Shown: piece by piece, positions 9,935 to 58,828 of the stretch
Position numbering within the stretch: the stretch's first letter is position 1
Layout of the letters: each line of letters opens with the position of its first letter
Origin: Sporosarcina sp. NCCP-2222
GTDB lineage: Bacteria; Bacillota; Bacilli; Bacillales_A; Planococcaceae
Assembly: GCF_023168145.1 (NCBI RefSeq)
Contig: NZ_BQYK01000002.1
Span: 65,531-129,530 of the forward strand
Reading direction: 5' to 3'
DNA: 64,000 bases
Translations under genes and position numbers: made by a program
The notes under the pieces: model-generated
The model's database searches: none
Told to the model about the DNA's origin: nothing
The model's input: the letters and a program-made list of their open reading frames with translations, nothing else

Positions 9935-10020
9935 CACGGTTATGCACGGCGTTAATCTGGCTGCTTTATGCGCAAATATCCTCCTGATATGCGCGGGTGG
10001 CACCGTTTATGCGCGGGCTT
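9935..10020. repeat. short degenerate array of ATGCGC units, about 20-21 bp apart
   Basis: This fills the 323-base gap between the niaP terminator and the DUF3592-like gene. The core ATGCGC begins at 9968, 9989 and 10009 (steps of 21 and 20), and a diverged ATGCAC copy begins at 9942. The wider unit reads GGCACCGTTTATGCGCGG at 9999-10016 and GGCACGGTTATGCACGG at 9933-9949. No gene, ribosome binding site or hairpin explains it. It resembles the longer arrays near 40.9, 55.0 and 56.5 kb in period but not in sequence. Confidence 0.5.
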
Positions 10021-40802: not shown

Positions 40803-40990
40803 GTTCTATCACCGGGTAAAACCCTCCAATCACCGCCTAAATCATTTCTACCACCGGGTAATCCCCGTTCTATCACCGCCTAAATCATTTCTACCACCGG
40901 GTAATCCCCGTCTATCACCGCCTAAATCATTTCTATCACCGGGTAATCCCCTTCTATCACCGCCTAAATTGAATTGATCACCGCTTCGCT
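40803..40990. repeat. intergenic array of CACCG units every 21 bp, two alternating spacers
   Basis: Nine copies of a core YTAYCACCG occur between the sigV-rsiV terminator and the next gene. CACCG begins at 40810, 40831, 40852, 40874, 40895, 40916, 40937, 40958 and 40979, that is at steps of 21 (once 22). Two spacers alternate strictly: GGTAATCCCCGTT and CCTAAATCATTT, giving a 42-43 bp dimer. All reading frames are shadows of the repeat. This 377-base gap contains nothing else. It resembles the arrays at 55 and 56.5 kb in design only. Confidence 0.8.
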
Positions 40991-41084
40991 ACAATTCAAA
41001 AAAGAACAATCTAATCAACTCTTCTGGGAACATCCTAATTCATGTTACGTTCTAGTAAAATAGAAAAGCATAGGAGGTTCTTAC

Positions 41085-52706: not shown

Positions 52707-53972
52707 TTATAGTTCTTGACGCAAGGCTTGAATCACATCAATCTTGGTCGCTTTTCTAGCTGGACGCCACCCTGAAACCATTGCAACTGTAATACTGATC
52801 GCAGAGGCAATGAGTACGAGCTGCCATGGAATAATGGAAAATGTTACATCCAATCCACCAAGATCCTCTTCGCTAAGAGCTGCCGAAACAATCATTGGCA
52901 AGACCATATTTGCTATATAACTGATGCCGTACGAAAGGATGACGGCAATCACTGTCCCTAAAATACCGATCCAAGCACTCTCCATTAAGAAAAGCCGCTG
53001 AATTAATTTAGGACTTGCGCCGATCGCTTTCATGACGCCTATTTCACGGGTCCGTTCTGTCACAGCCATCGTCATAGTGTTAAAAATACCAATCGAAGCA
53101 ATCAATATGGCAATGGTTCCGACAAACACCAAGCCTGCTTTGAACGCGAGGAAAAACACATCAATCTGTTCCAGCTGGTCAGCAATGGAGTAGACAGAAT
53201 ATCCCTCTTCCTTCAATGCGTTGCTCACAGTCTTCACATTTTCCAGCTTATCTGCGTACATTTTTACGTTGCCATAAAACAATTCGCCATCCGGTTCTTC
53301 GACATTCGCCTGGTAGATTTGATTCAAGGTAGGGATAATGCTTTCATCCGCATATATATTGGCATCCTGAATCCAATCTTTCGCAGGTTCTTTTGCAATA
53401 CCAACAATCGTAAACGCCGTCTCTTCCGGGAATGATTCTTTTTCATCATATAACCCCATCTGATACGTAAACTGTTTTCCCATCAGTTCCCCATCATAAG
53501 TCACAGGCAATTCCGGATCCTCACCCGGCTCTATCAGATTCTGGGCAAAATGACTGCCGACCACAACCTCATTTGAAGTTTTCGGTAGACGCCCTTCCTT
53601 CAGGGCAAAGCCTACTTTCCCCTCCTCTTTAAAGTCCGTGATAATAAGCTGCTGACTTCCTTCGAAACCATCTAGGGATATCGTAGACTGCAGGTCCATG
53701 GATTGCCGGTACACAACCGCTTTGATATGGTCACGCTTCTTCAGTTTCTCAACCGTCGACTCGTTCATCTGATCCGAATACACTTCAATTTCATTTACCG
53801 CGCGATTATCCAAAATCTCTTTTCGCATCGTATCATGGATACCGAAGCCGACCGATGCCAGAACGATTAGAAAAGCCGTTCCCATTGTTGCAGCAAGAAT
53901 GGTCATGAACACGCGTAACTTATTCTTCTTAATATGCTGACGGACAAAATCCAATTGATCCTTAAACTGCAT
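52707..53972 (-). CDS. MacB-like ABC transporter permease
   Basis: A 421-residue permease with four helices: one at residues 20-45 and three in the C-terminal third, with a large extracytoplasmic domain (about residues 50-270) between them. RTREIGVMKAIGASPKLIQRLFL and the final GWRPARKATKIDVIQALR are hallmarks of the MacB/FtsX family. It works with the ATPase encoded just upstream, with which it overlaps by 11 bases. Function may be peptide or antibiotic export or envelope stress. Confidence 0.88.
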   Translation of the reverse strand: MQFKDQLDFVRQHIKKNKLRVFMTILAATMGTAFLIVLASVGFGIHDTMRKEILDNRAVNEIEVYSDQMNESTVEKLKKRDHIKAVVYRQSMDLQSTISLDGFEGSQQLIITDFKEEGKVGFALKEGRLPKTSNEVVVGSHFAQNLIEPGEDPELPVTYDGELMGKQFTYQMGLYDEKESFPEETAFTIVGIAKEPAKDWIQDANIYADESIIPTLNQIYQANVEEPDGELFYGNVKMYADKLENVKTVSNALKEEGYSVYSIADQLEQIDVFFLAFKAGLVFVGTIAILIASIGIFNTMTMAVTERTREIGVMKAIGASPKLIQRLFLMESAWIGILGTVIAVILSYGISYIANMVLPMIVSAALSEEDLGGLDVTFSIIPWQLVLIASAISITVAMVSGWRPARKATKIDVIQALRQEL

Positions 53973-54660
53973 GCGTCACGCCTCCTTCCTTCAATTCTCC
54001 ATCGTGCATCCGATAAATCCGGTCGGCCGTCTCCGCCACCGTATCGTCATGCGTAATGATAATGAACGTAATCCCGCGGGTACGGTTCAACGACTGAATC
54101 AACAGCAAAATATCCTGCTCCGTCTCGGAATCCAAACTCCCCGTCGGCTCGTCCGCGAAAATAATAGGCGGATCCGTAATAAGCGCACGCGCGATACTCA
54201 CCCGCTGTTGCTGCCCACCGGACAACTCGTTTGGATAGTGATGCTGTACGTCCGTCAATCCAACGATCGTAAGAAGCTCCTTCACTTTCTGCTTCCGGAT
54301 GGCCCGGTCCACCCCGCTCAACTTAAGCGGCAACTCCACATTCTCAAACGCCGTTAACCCCGGCATCAGCTGGAAGTTCTGAAAAATGAACCCGTACGTC
54401 GAAAGCCGAAACGCCGCTCGCTCCGCCTCCGAGTAAGAAGTCGTCATCGTGCCATCCACCCGAATCGTCCCCCGATCCGGCGTCAAAAACCCCGCCAATA
54501 TATGCAGCAACGTCGACTTCCCCGACCCGCTCCGTCCTACAATCGAAACGATCTCGCCTTTCTGTATCGAAAAATTCAACCCCTTCAGCACCGGCACTTC
54601 CTTCTCCTTGCCCTTCTTGCCAATCTTAAACGAATGATACAACTCCCGAACCTCAATCAT
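53962..54660 (-). CDS. MacB/LolD-type ABC transporter ATP-binding protein
   Basis: A 232-residue ATPase with Walker [12 protein letters not shown], the signature LSGGQQQRV, Walker [13 protein letters not shown] and a switch His in THDDTVAE. The family (MacB, LolD, FtsE) pairs with FtsX-type permeases such as the next gene. Start: ATG with GGAGGTTGCAGG upstream. The 20-bp repeat array lies upstream of this gene, but the intervening 130 bases contain no clear promoter. Confidence 0.9.
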
Positions 54661-54792
54661 CCTGCAACCTCCATTTGTTTCATTTGTAGGTCCAGTATAG
54701 ACGGCGAATCTTAAGAGGGAGTGAGGGGGAAAATGAAGAATTTCTTAAGAATGGAGTGGGTTGGGGGTGGGTGTTTGCTGGGAGGATTGATT

Positions 54793-55162
54793 AATTGGCG
54801 TTTGGGCTGCGGTTCTGGCGTTCAGATGTGTTTTCTGGCGTTCGTTTCGTTTTTCTGGCGTTCAACTGCTTTTTCTGGCGTTCGGTTCGACTTTCTGGCG
54901 TTCAGCCGCTGTTTCTGGCGTTCGATTCGACTTTCTGGCGTTCATTTCGATTTTCTGGCGTTCAGCCGCTTTTTCTGGCATTCGCTTCGACTTTCTGGCG
55001 TTCAGCCGTGTTTTCTGGTGTTCGTTTCGTTTTTCTGGCGTTCAGCCGCTTTTTCTGGCGTTCGTTTCGACTTTCTGGCGTTCAGCCGCTTTTTCTGGCG
55101 TTCGTTTTGACTTTCTGGCGTTCAGCTGCTGTTTCTGGCGTTCGGTTCGTTTTTCTGGCTTC
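54793..55162. repeat. array 1: 20-bp units TTTCTGGCGTTC plus 8-bp spacers
   Basis: Eighteen units start at 54813 and then every 20 bases without a single indel to 55153 (the last one is partial); a degenerate copy lies at 54793. The fixed core is TTCTGGCGTTC with rare single-base changes. Spacers fall into two kinds, AGCCGCTT and GTTTCGAC, that alternate, giving a 40-bp dimer; the order breaks once, at 54913/54933. It occupies the 532-base gap between the ABC ATPase and the NERD gene. No gene or promoter is seen in the rest of the gap. Confidence 0.9.
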
Positions 55163-55192
55163 AGTTAAATATTAAACCTTTCTTGTTGATCA

Positions 55193-56137
55193 CTAGTTCC
55201 TGTAATAGTAAGCATCTTTAGATACTCCGTACATAGTGAGTCCCGAGTTTTGAAGAAGCCTTTTAGCAACATGAATGTCTTGAATACATGCAAACTCTCT
55301 AAATTGTTGATTTGTTAGCTTCCTTTCCACCAAAACCAACCAATCCTCAATCAGTTCCAGATGAGCATCTGTAGATGTGCATCCACAATTACTGCAACTC
55401 CATCTTCTTAGCAGTCTTTTCATACCGAAATGAAAGCAATTCGGACAGATAACACCAGGCAAAATATCGATCAATGGGATCCCAAACATTTGTAATAGAG
55501 GTTCCGGTACATACTCTTGATGTTCAACAATCATTACACTTGCTATCTCTCGAATCTGCTGAGAGGTAATAATCTCTTGCTCGAGCCTTTGACTGTACAA
55601 AAGGATTGGCACATCCTGTGTACTTACAACTTGCTTGGCAGGTTGTTCATTCATGATAATTTCGTTTGTATAAGCCAAGACAACAATACCGATGATCGGC
55701 AAATCAATTCCCCTTTCTAATAGCCACTGCTTAAGGAATATCTCCTTGCGCTCCAGTTCCAAAATGGGATTCTGAAGTACTTTTCTTTCATTCAAGTTTT
55801 CTTGAATAAACTGAGTAGGATCAGATTTTACAATTATTTTTCCTGCTAAGTTTTTCACTTCAAAAATGAAGATTCCAGTGGGAGTAATTAACAATGAGTC
55901 CATTTGAAAGTAAATGCCATTCTGCTTTAAGCAAACATCATGAAGTATAACATAGGGATAGGATGGTCGAAACTCATTAATATGCTTATCAAAATAGGAC
56001 TCCCCCGAAAAGCCCGCTGCCCTCCTCCTAAAATCCTCAGATACATAACCGTATTTCTCATGTGTCTCCGGTAATCTTCTTAATAACTTTCTCAAAGCCT
56101 GCAACGTAGCTGGTTCTTTCCTCTTCTTGTATATCAT
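55193..56137 (-). CDS. NERD-domain (nuclease-related) protein with zinc ribbon
   Basis: A 314-residue protein. The NERD domain contains GESYFD (residues 45-50), FQMDSLLITPTGIFIFEVKN with Asp80, Glu93 and Lys95 in the restriction-endonuclease-like pattern, and a following helical region. A four-cysteine zinc ribbon lies at 231-253 (CPNC and CSNC), then a C-terminal alpha/beta segment. NERD proteins are nuclease-like, with unclear roles. Start: ATG with GAGG eight bases upstream. It lies between two arrays of the same 20-bp unit. Confidence 0.82.
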   Translation of the reverse strand: MIYKKRKEPATLQALRKLLRRLPETHEKYGYVSEDFRRRAAGFSGESYFDKHINEFRPSYPYVILHDVCLKQNGIYFQMDSLLITPTGIFIFEVKNLAGKIIVKSDPTQFIQENLNERKVLQNPILELERKEIFLKQWLLERGIDLPIIGIVVLAYTNEIIMNEQPAKQVVSTQDVPILLYSQRLEQEIITSQQIREIASVMIVEHQEYVPEPLLQMFGIPLIDILPGVICPNCFHFGMKRLLRRWSCSNCGCTSTDAHLELIEDWLVLVERKLTNQQFREFACIQDIHVAKRLLQNSGLTMYGVSKDAYYYRN

Positions 56138-56313
56138 TTTCCTCACCTCGATTGCACCATATCAAAGTTTCTCTATTACTCAAAATCCGTAAATCGAGGA
56201 TTTGATGTTGTTTTGATTATCAAAATGAGGATTTCAAGAGTTTACAAATTGGACAAAGCCTATACTCTCAACATTTGAAGAAATACAAAGTACATATTTG
56301 GGATATTCCTATT

Positions 56314-56633
56314 TTCTGGCGTTCAATCCGATTTTCTGGCGTTCAGCTGCTGTTTCTGACGTTCATTTCGATTTTCTGGCGTTCGCCTGCTGTTTCTGGC
56401 GTTCATTCCTATTATCTGGCGTTCACCTACTTTTTCTGGCGTTCATTCCGATTATCTGGCGTTCAGCTGCTGTTTCTGGCGCTCATTTCGATTTTCTGGC
56501 GTTCACCTGCTGTTTCTGGCGCTCATTTCGATTTTCTGGCGTTCACCTGCTGTTTCTGGCGTTCATTTCGATTATCTGGCGTTCAGTTGCCTTTTCTGGC
56601 GTTCAGCCCGATTTTCTGGCGTTCACCCGAAAT
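56314..56633. repeat. array 2: 20-bp units of the same consensus as array 1
   Basis: Sixteen units start at 56314 and then every 20 bases to 56614, with the same core TTCTGGCGTTC (variants CTGAC, TATCTGGC, GCTC) and the same orientation as array 1. Spacers alternate ATTTCGAT with ACCTGCTG or AGCTGCTG; the two kinds differ slightly from array 1. A decayed 17th unit runs to about 56645. It lies in the 566-base gap between the NERD gene and the floT terminator; the rest of the gap has no gene. Confidence 0.9.
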
Positions 56634-56663
56634 TCCCTAGCGATCACCATCCACCAAACAAAA

Positions 56664-56692
56664 AACCCCCGATCCGCCAGGCGGGTCGGGGG
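56664..56692 (-). terminator. terminator of the floT operon
   Basis: The stem CCCCCGATCCGCC/GGCGGGTCGGGGG is followed by six T on the minus strand. Confidence 0.85.
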
Positions 56693-56703
56693 CACTTCAT
56701 TAA

Positions 56704-58257
56704 TTATTCTTCGGTCGATGCATTTTCTTCTTTTGTAGCGACACCGGCACTCGACTTAGTAGCGGATAGTTCTTCGGTCAGTCGGTCGATGCTGGGACGC
56801 AGTGTGTTTTTGCCTACGTAGCTTTCCATCATTTCTTTGACGTCGATGCCGGAAGAAGCCTTTAAGGATTCTTGGAGCGTGGACATCAGGTTCGTTGCGT
56901 AGGAGGTTACTTTGTTGGCGCCGCCGCCTTCGCCGCCGCCCGTGTCAACGACAGTGATCTTGTCGATGTTGGATAGTGGGCTTGCAACTTGTTTCGCATA
57001 TTCAGGGATCATGCGGACAATCATATCAAGGACAGCTGCCTGGCCGTACTGTTCGAAGGCTTCCGCAATTTTGCGTTTTGCTTCGGCTTCGGCCAGACCT
57101 TTAAGACGAATGACATCGGCTTCGGATTCCCCTTGTGCCCGTTGCGAGTCGGCTTTTGCCAAACCATCAAGCCGGATTTTTTCCGCTTCGGCAGCGGCTC
57201 TAGCCTCGATGCGGTATTTTTCCGCGTCGGCTTCTGCCAACTGACGGGATTTTTCAGCGGCTGCATTTTGTTCAATCGCATACCGGTCGGCGTCTGCCTT
57301 TTTCTTAACTTCGGAGTCGTACTGTCTTTCCCGACGCAAGATCTCTTTCTCTTCCAATTCGATTTGCTTTTGACGTTCGATGATGCGGACTTGCATCTCC
57401 TGCTCGGTTACTTCTTGCTTGGCACGAGCGGATTCCAGCTCATACGCCTGGTCGGCACGCGCTTTCGCCACGTCTTGCTCTCGGCGGTACTCAGCCACTT
57501 TCAACTGGTTTTCTTTTTCTGCTTCAGCAATTTCAGTAGCACGCTCAATTTCAGCCTTTTGTGCTTCCTTCGATGCTTCAGCATTTTTGATGCGCGTTTC
57601 TTTTTCCGCTTCTGCAGTTGCAATATCAGCGTCGCGTTTTACTTGTGCGATCCTCGGCTTCCCTAATGAATCAAGATATCCGTTCTTATCGCGCACATCT
57701 TTAATTGTAAAGGAGACAATGACAAGCCCCATTTTCGCAAGGTCTTGCGAAGCAACCCGCTGTACTTCCTGTGAGAACTTATCACGGTTCTTATAGATTT
57801 CTTCAACAGTCATCGAGCCTAAGATGGAGCGTAAATGACCTTCTAGAACTTCTTTCGCTTCATTTTCACGGTCATCTTTTGATTTTCCTAAAAATTGTTC
57901 GGCCGCCGTTGCGATTTCAGAGATGGAACCGCCGATCTTGATGATGGCTGTACCGTCGGCCATCACTGGAACACCTTGTTCCGTGTATACTTCCGGTGTT
58001 GTTACTTCCAATTTGCTTGATAGCAAGCTGAGCGGTTCCGATTGTTGGAACACCGGGAAGACGAATGTACCGCCTCCACGAATGATTTTAATCCGGTTTC
58101 CGGAATCATCCGTATGTACATTTTTCGAGCCGAGATAGCTCCCTGTAACGATTAGCGCTTCGTCCGGTCCGACCGTCTTATACTTAGAGACGTAGACTAG
58201 GACGATGGCTAGCAGAATAAATGCCACAATCCCAATGATAATAAAAATACTTGGCAT
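56704..58257 (-). CDS. floT: flotillin-like protein FloT (YuaG)
   Basis: A 517-residue SPFH protein that organises membrane microdomains. A single N-terminal helix (residues 3-22) is followed by the SPFH/band-7 domain (ALIVTGSYLG, VLEGHLRSILGSMTVEEIYKNR), then long coiled-coil repeats rich in Ala and Glu (residues about 190-390) and a flexible C-terminal tail with GGGEGGG. Length and neighbours match Bacillus YuaG. It follows the NfeD gene by 37 bases. AAGGGGGA precedes the ATG. Confidence 0.92.
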   Translation of the reverse strand: MPSIFIIIGIVAFILLAIVLVYVSKYKTVGPDEALIVTGSYLGSKNVHTDDSGNRIKIIRGGGTFVFPVFQQSEPLSLLSSKLEVTTPEVYTEQGVPVMADGTAIIKIGGSISEIATAAEQFLGKSKDDRENEAKEVLEGHLRSILGSMTVEEIYKNRDKFSQEVQRVASQDLAKMGLVIVSFTIKDVRDKNGYLDSLGKPRIAQVKRDADIATAEAEKETRIKNAEASKEAQKAEIERATEIAEAEKENQLKVAEYRREQDVAKARADQAYELESARAKQEVTEQEMQVRIIERQKQIELEEKEILRRERQYDSEVKKKADADRYAIEQNAAAEKSRQLAEADAEKYRIEARAAAEAEKIRLDGLAKADSQRAQGESEADVIRLKGLAEAEAKRKIAEAFEQYGQAAVLDMIVRMIPEYAKQVASPLSNIDKITVVDTGGGEGGGANKVTSYATNLMSTLQESLKASSGIDVKEMMESYVGKNTLRPSIDRLTEELSATKSSAGVATKEENASTEE

Positions 58258-58294
58258 CGCAATTCCCCCTTATAAGAATTTATTAGTTTTGATC

Positions 58295-58828
58295 TTACGA
58301 AAAACGGAACGGTTCATACTCCTTGACGATGAATGTGCCTTCCTTCACTTCAATAACAAGCACTTCCTTGCCATACTCGATCGGTTCGTTCTCATAGCCG
58401 GCCGCCCGCTTGTTAATGATACCGTTCACTGTTTCAATGATGATTTCCCCGAAGCCGTCCACCGGAATCGGCACAATGACTTTGCCGACCTGGCCAGTTA
58501 ACGATTCATCGGTATACGTCATCGAAACCTCCGCAGATTTCAATGGTAGGAGCACGAAAAAATAGAGGAGTACGTCCAGCAGGATAGCGCCGACAAGCGA
58601 CACAACCAAGGTAAGGCTATGATTCCAACCCGTTAGTAATTCGAGAATATACCCGATTGCCGCGGTGAATGTAATAAATGCCAAAATGACAGCTGGATCT
58701 AGAAATGGACTGCCTTCACCGATCCCCTCCGTGATATCACTAAAGAAGATGTATAAGATTGTGGCTAGACCAGCAATAATAAGGACAGTCAGATAGACTT
58801 GCACAATCGGCATGCCAAACAGTTCCAA
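58295..58828 (-). CDS. yuaF: NfeD-family membrane protein (YuaF-like)
   Basis: A 177-residue protein with three helices (about 10-32, 45-62, 66-90) followed by a C-terminal OB-fold NfeD domain (GQVGKVIVPIPVDGFGEIII). NfeD proteins are genetically linked to flotillins, as here, and help form membrane microdomains. The start is a TTG with GGAGG eight bases upstream; an ATG 15 bases later is possible, and longer frames have no ribosome binding site. Confidence 0.87.
   Translation of the reverse strand: MELFGMPIVQVYLTVLIIAGLATILYIFFSDITEGIGEGSPFLDPAVILAFITFTAAIGYILELLTGWNHSLTLVVSLVGAILLDVLLYFFVLLPLKSAEVSMTYTDESLTGQVGKVIVPIPVDGFGEIIIETVNGIINKRAAGYENEPIEYGKEVLVIEVKEGTFIVKEYEPFRFS

Follow-up and report, generated by a model that had tools for sequence, protein, structure and literature searches.

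A tandem array of 20-bp units in the window, the whole 64,000-nucleotide stretch of Sporosarcina sp. NCCP-2222 DNA analysed here, belongs to a genome-wide set of arrays which have a common core and a fixed pitch. In relatives, arrays built on different cores occupy these gene gaps and point the same way. Taking these features together, we put at about even the chance that the arrays are cis-acting rows of binding sites for a putative double-stranded DNA-binding protein, perhaps a chromosome-organising one, with which the core would co-evolve. The arrays of the window and the genes next to arrays 1 and 2 are the following:

9941..10016, + strand: family 3 array, short and decayed, with about four units around TATGCGCGG, read by eye (9941, 9967, 9988 and 10008; first distance 26 bp)
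40804..40993, + strand: family 2 array, 8-9 units of about 21 bp with the core TTCTATCACCG, forming a 42-bp dimer
53962..54660, - strand: ABC transporter ATPase, whose 5' side adjoins array 1
54793..55172, + strand: array 1 (family 1), a decayed edge unit at 54793 and then 18 units of 20 bp with the core TTCTGGCGTTC
55193..56146, - strand: NERD-domain protein (PF08378), between arrays 1 and 2
56314..56633, + strand: array 2 (family 1), 16 units of 20 bp in the same direction as array 1
56704..58257, - strand: flotillin (Band_7/Flot), whose 3' side adjoins array 2 and which served as anchor gene for the comparison of relatives

The units of array 1 start at 54813, 54833 and so on up to 55153 (n = 18), and all 17 intervals are of exactly 20 bp, which confirms the 18 equally spaced copies (54813-55172) of the earlier note. 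The decayed nineteenth unit at 54793 reads AATTGGCGTTT. The core is exactly TTCTGGCGTTC in 15 of the 18 units, and the variants are TTCTGGCATTC (54973), TTCTGGTGTTC (55013) and TTCTGGCTTCA (55153). The last of these fits the loss of one base within the core, so the description of the array as free of indels holds for the spacing of the unit starts and fails in the last unit only. Tandem Repeats Finder gave periods of 20, 40 and 80. The spacers alternate between agccgcttt and gtttcgact types with a single break at 54913/54933, as had been claimed, and the spacer at the break, ATTTCGATT, is indeed present in array 2, which lies between the NERD-protein gene and the flotillin gene end and whose spacers are of atttcgatt and acctgctgt types. 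Two spacers are common to these neighbours, and the exchange between them that the note had suggested is plausible on sequence grounds. With respect to the gene that separates them, a NERD-domain gene was present at the flotillin interval in four of 20 relatives (G043, G016, G004 and G031), with an identity of 54-77% compared with 80-95% for the neighbouring ABC ATPase, and S. cyprini carried different genes at this place. The interval that separates the two arrays may be a hotspot of insertion.

When the rest of the genome was searched with the core, as the earlier note had proposed, array 1 proved to be one of about 38 places. The 11-mer core occurred 142 + 50 times in the 4.02-Mb genome and 4 + 0 times in the reversed control, a frequency far beyond chance. 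The number of places comes from 55 BLAST matches to array 1, which were merged by eye and of which the weakest are short. Printed unit by unit, each family 1 array has its own spacers, usually one alternating pair. The filter used for calling these arrays yielded none at L073, L079, L082, L083, L084, L094, L101, L103, L108 and L111, some of which were recovered with looser filters. Three spacers are common to two arrays on separate contigs, L085 (C15) and L111 (C6). In G043 the sequences flanking them lie about 2 kb from each other, so that the two may be adjacent arrays or a single array that was split. Families 2 and 3 show the same build: the former (TTCTATCACCG, 21 bp, 42-bp dimer) is found at nine places, at 40804 in the window and at eight others, and the latter (TATGCGCGG, 21 bp) gave 59 pair matches at about 17 places. 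A core which is shared among loci with private spacers needs something that reads it in trans, and the simplest such reader would be a protein with one binding site for every two helical turns. As the genome holds three core families, a single factor would not do.

The constraint on family 1 was evaluated in 75 arrays of three species (31 of the own genome, 24 of Sporosarcina cyprini and 20 of S. luteola). Between units two apart, which have the same parity, core positions 4-11 differed in 0.6-7% of the comparisons, core positions 1-3 in 8-13% and spacer positions in 19-32%, values in which core conservation is slightly inflated because the arrays were located via the core. The pitch was exactly 20 bp in 1450 of 1535 intervals, and 12 intervals of 40 bp possibly reflect missed units. 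In family 3, the divergence at lag 2 was 0-24% in the core and 35-59% in the spacer (34 pairs, 12 of about 17 places), while neighbouring units (53 pairs, 12 places) differed by 49-89% in their spacers and by 0-26% in the core; one nearly fixed T of the spacer (8% divergence) is an exception to spacer drift. Given that these units have kept their core and yet diverged in their spacers, recent amplification alone, one of the two causes offered for the regularity of array 1, is hard to accept. The other one, selection for phase, is plausible in view of the family 1 intervals and of the 20-21 bp pitch of the relatives.

These data bear directly on the main rival explanation, a functionless satellite in which slippage and unequal exchange would amplify intergenic units of 20/40 bp, occasional conversion between loci would spread the core, and any polarity would result from orientation-dependent repeat stability at the fork. 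The edges do decay: imperfect TGGCGTTC accounted for 48% of the units at array edges versus 9% in the middle in the own genome, with a decrease from 39 to 3% in S. cyprini and from 58 to 26% in S. luteola. Close species differ freely in copy number and spacers, for example with 5 vs. 33 units at orthologous loci. It must be noted that the earlier note had named free variation of phase and spacer order among strains, with many indels, as an outcome that would refute it; copy number and spacers do vary in this way, and phase does not. Arrays 1 and 2 have two spacers in common, and 21 spacer instances were shared between loci against 9.0 expected (the largest of 300 shuffles gave 20), which suggests a degree of exchange among loci. 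All this would suit a satellite; the decay at array edges also counts in favour of rows of binding sites. Nevertheless, we consider it possible but doubtful, since the usual lengths of bacterial conversion tracts make it unlikely that an 11-bp core is converted without the adjoining 9-bp spacers, core and spacer of the same units differ several-fold in divergence, and the family 3 core is kept while its neighbouring spacers are nearly unrelated.

The search of related genomes, also suggested in the earlier note, revealed that corresponding gaps carry arrays of a different core. A flotillin match was present in 50 of 61 genomes, and 20 relatives were selected from these for a comparison of about 20 kb around the flotillin gene. 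A 20-21 bp array was present at the flotillin 3' gap in nine of these relatives and absent from it in 11, and the csp gap, which lies upstream of flotillin at a distance of about 3 kb, carried a long array in seven of the 20 and short repeats in two more. The direction of the arrays relative to flotillin was constant at both gaps (9/9 and 7/7, respectively), the core direction in G054 having been set by its likeness (TTGGAC) to the G032 core. As the csp and flotillin genes are in opposite orientation, and G004 and G032 carry arrays in both gaps, the arrays are oriented with respect to the chromosome and independently of the gene beside them.

The cores found in the relatives included TTTGGCGC in G043, TTCTGGCGTTC in G016, CTTGAGCGCGG in G004 and G051, TTCAGGCGGTT in G031, TTTGGACGCGG in G032, TTTGGGCGCGG in G040, ATTGCGCGC in G013, CTTTGCGCGG in G050, TTCGGGCGCGG in G036 and TTCGTTGGACA in G054. 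The pitch was 20-21 bp, with additional 19-bp units in G054. Neighbours on the flotillin tree tend towards similar cores, although the agreement is partial: the genomes with CTTGAGCGCGG (G038, G051 and G004) do not form one clade, the sisters G031 and G032 have different cores, and G016 has the core of the window yet groups with G043. Among 20 regions of G043 matched to array loci of the own genome, 10 held a Tandem Repeats Finder repeat with a core of this kind, including four with fewer than four copies and one (3427212) which is separated from the matched gene by about 4 kb. Several G043 arrays consist of TATTGGCGTTC or TTTGGCGC, the forms which survive at some array edges of the own genome. 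In three complete relatives, G050 (21 arrays fetched), G038 (16) and G054 (10), arrays with a core particular to that genome occur genome-wide, and each locus has its own spacers; these arrays were obtained as matches to one array query each, by which any other families there would be missed. The G054 arrays (L193, L323-L330) show a 103-bp higher-order period of five units, mostly of 21 bp plus one of 18-19, unlike the two-unit period seen elsewhere.

A two-copy pattern of family 1 with up to two mismatches was found in three of 61 genomes of the genus (the own genome, G016 and G043) and in none of 40 other genomes of the class. A scan of genome contigs for the exact four-copy pattern, from which records very near to the genome of the window may be left out, gave 67 stretches, 61 of them in S. 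luteola and S. cyprini; the remaining six, in six other genomes, are short repeats that look unrelated to family 1 and were discarded. In 369 kb from 20 other members of the class, a single array reached the threshold of at least 5 copies of 18-23 bp or at least 3 of 38-44 bp, and it was located inside an open reading frame. Among 200 genomes of the order, 33 contained an exact three-copy pattern of a related core, and these belonged to 5 of 17 genera, a search in which the reversed control also matches in some array-bearing genomes because the control motif fits those arrays as well. Outside the genus, only genus g39 had several matches per genome.

With regard to replication, the array strand inferred from GC skew was the lagging strand in 16/16 arrays of G038 and in 18/20 of G050, counted without one array that lacked core matches (34/36 together), and in only 6/10 of G054. 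Family 1 of the own genome had no overall polarity: among 32 mapped arrays (30 of 33 pieces placed by search and the two window arrays by hand), 14 point to the origin and 18 away from it, and replication polarity was therefore rejected for this family as a whole. Within 0.5 Mb of the origin 8/11 arrays point to it and farther out 6/21 (Fisher 0.027), a comparison in which the 0.5-Mb cut was chosen post hoc and the origin of G043 was set between rRNA operons, partly from the direction switch of the arrays themselves. For the proposed rows of binding sites, the G038 and G050 counts speak in favour, and those of the own genome and of G054 against. By skew, the polarity of family 2 was mixed. In the own genome, arrays occur as far as 1.9 Mb away from the origin. 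The 27 joined-query matches of G050 all lay outside the region of 1.78-3.63 Mb, where 20 sampled stretches of 20 kb contained no 18-23 bp repeat above about 3 copies. The first two core bases also go with the strand: ATC/TAC forms reached at least 35% of the units in 18/19 leading-strand arrays of the own genome vs. 3/12 lagging ones, with two ambiguous arrays left out. The p values of this association were 1e-4 in the own genome, 0.005 in S. cyprini and 0.003 in S. luteola, and they are not independent because the loci are orthologous. The leading strands of Firmicutes are A-rich, which could explain part of this sorting.

The strand polarity of G038 and G050 would suit action on single-stranded DNA at the fork, as expected from a selfish or mobile enzyme of nickase or transposase type which recognises the core and drives array growth without benefit to the cell. 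Recognition in trans by such an enzyme would also account for one core at many loci. We regard it as unlikely, given that position and direction are stable at two gaps while the cores change, unlike fresh insertions, and that the family 1 pattern had no match in viral contigs, plasmids or phages. On the latter result, a mobile-element or phage origin of family 1 was rejected.

Genes were called by an in-house script based on ORFs and hexamers. None of 61 arrays overlapped a called gene, a figure partly built in because ORFs overlapped by an array over more than 30% of their length had been masked; three arrays that overlapped a called gene in G038, G050 and G054 were left out of the context count. 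Convergent gaps made up 28 of the 73 gaps with an array and 81 of the 697 without one (chi-square for gap type 1e-9, and 1.5e-6 against the 276 gaps of at least 100 bp), and none of the 32 classified arrays of G038 and G050 lay between divergent genes. Such a distribution would suit a boundary of transcription units, with a row of bound protein acting as roadblock or insulator between operons. This explanation seems quite unlikely to us, because 13 of the 73 gaps with an array are divergent in the clade of the window, the direction of the arrays tracks the chromosome at the flotillin and csp gaps, and intrinsic terminators were not clearly enriched at the 3' ends that face an array, as judged by a simple hairpin-plus-T finder that looks too strict. 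The proportions at array-facing vs. other 3' ends were 12/36 vs. 35/124 in the own genome, 10/24 vs. 7/23 in G050, 11/18 vs. 7/13 in G038 and 5/13 vs. 2/16 in G054, and an association with terminators was rejected accordingly.

The statement that no coding, hairpin or CRISPR explanation fits is borne out by stop codons, folding z-scores and spacers alike. In arrays of at least 10 units, 0/63 had an open frame on the complement strand; on the array strand 41/63 had none and 22/63 had one to three. This result is independent of the gene calls, and a coding repeat or minisatellite was rejected. The folding z-scores of arrays 1 and 2 ranged from -0.5 to +2.4, no better than shuffles, and RNA structure was discarded for both, as it was for the window's family 2 array, with 140 bases folded in each case. 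REP/BIME or MITE elements were also dismissed, as the 20-bp consensus has no dyad on inspection and arrays 1 and 2 fold like shuffles. An RNA-guide array, CRISPR-like or TIGR-like, appears very improbable indeed. Its repeats of about 11 nt, spacers of 9 nt and alternation of two spacers do resemble TIGR arrays (PMC12045711), in which repeats of 8-12 nt alternate with variable 9-nt spacers, a tas gene is adjacent and the RNA is processed. These last three features belong to TIGR; family 1 spacers mostly recur within an array as one alternating pair with variants and are not diverse, on which ground a CRISPR array was rejected, and only family 3 has diverse spacers. The Nop-domain model PF01798, on which the rejection of TIGR-Tas is based, had no match in seven of eight genomes (the own genome and six relatives). 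In the eighth, G054, it gave three borderline or weak matches in frames of 310-330 aa (C1 301939, 1281768 and 1383363), which are presumably IS110-type transposases. Finally, no Rfam match was obtained at E up to 1 in 53000-58500.

What the sequence does offer is direct repeats, a helical pitch and a conserved core, as in iteron or centromere-type arrays, and this makes a candidate binding array. RepA iterons and the plasmid centromeres parC/ParR and tubC/TubR are likewise direct repeats, spaced regularly in relation to the helix, and every repeat is regarded as the site of one protein; they are single arrays beside their own rep or par gene, unlike the Sporosarcina core, which occupies about 38 chromosomal places with no linked gene known. 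The species-specific terminator boxes downstream of eukaryotic rRNA genes are also tandem polar sites which co-evolve with their factor, TTF-I, but they are eukaryotic, occupy one type of locus and have a known factor. The sites of the RacA binding motif (ram) are not known to form tandem rows but are single, and differ in this from the Sporosarcina arrays, with which they were compared by description. In Bacillus subtilis, ram sites are centromere-like, chromosomal, dense near the origin and bound by a dedicated protein (PMC6593407). The intergenic heptamer repeats of Xanthomonas and Nostoc are similar in being dispersed, intergenic and tandem, and different in having 7-bp G-rich units without spacers; in Xanthomonas, their locations are reported to be more conserved than control gaps and to favour neither the origin nor the terminus, and neither the leading nor the lagging strand (PMC4692102). 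Titles and abstract openings, which made up most of the literature covered, contained no description of the arrays reported here. Dispersed intergenic tandem repeats are a known kind, and fixed gap and direction with species-specific cores are apparently new.

We infer the following mechanism for a binding protein. Each 20-bp unit would contain a core of 8-11 bp, with TGGCGTTC as its strictest part, that serves as the putative site of one protomer, and the pitch of 20-21 bp, two helical turns, would line the protomers up along almost one face of the double helix in a common orientation. Spacers would not be read by the protein and would drift, and units would be renewed locally by unequal exchange, mostly as 40-bp pairs; drift together with renewal in pairs would leave each locus with its own spacer pair and all loci with a common core. 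If the preference of the protein, one common factor for each core, shifted in a lineage, the better-bound units would be re-amplified in every array, so that the core would change across loci while gaps and direction stayed. The role would likely be in chromosome organisation or segregation, as landmark, anchor or polar barrier. Extending this proposal, we tentatively suggest, at well below an even chance, that Sporosarcina and some relatives possess a chromosome-wide system of dozens of arrays of fixed pitch and direction, with a putative fast-evolving binder and a core that is exchanged between species at dozens of loci whose positions are kept.

Bacterial genomes contain little satellite-like DNA, and most of the centromere-like sites known from them are single motifs whose sequence is conserved. 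The presence of one core per genome, and of another core in the matching gaps elsewhere, makes the joint change of binder and site testable in bacteria species by species. In this regard, some array edges seem to keep older cores, so the order in which cores changed would be readable from them. If the chromosome-wide system is true, satellite-like arrays of a bacterium would be co-evolving in concert with a protein that organises the chromosome, as in centromere satellites, and the decayed array edges would preserve the earlier specificities of that protein.
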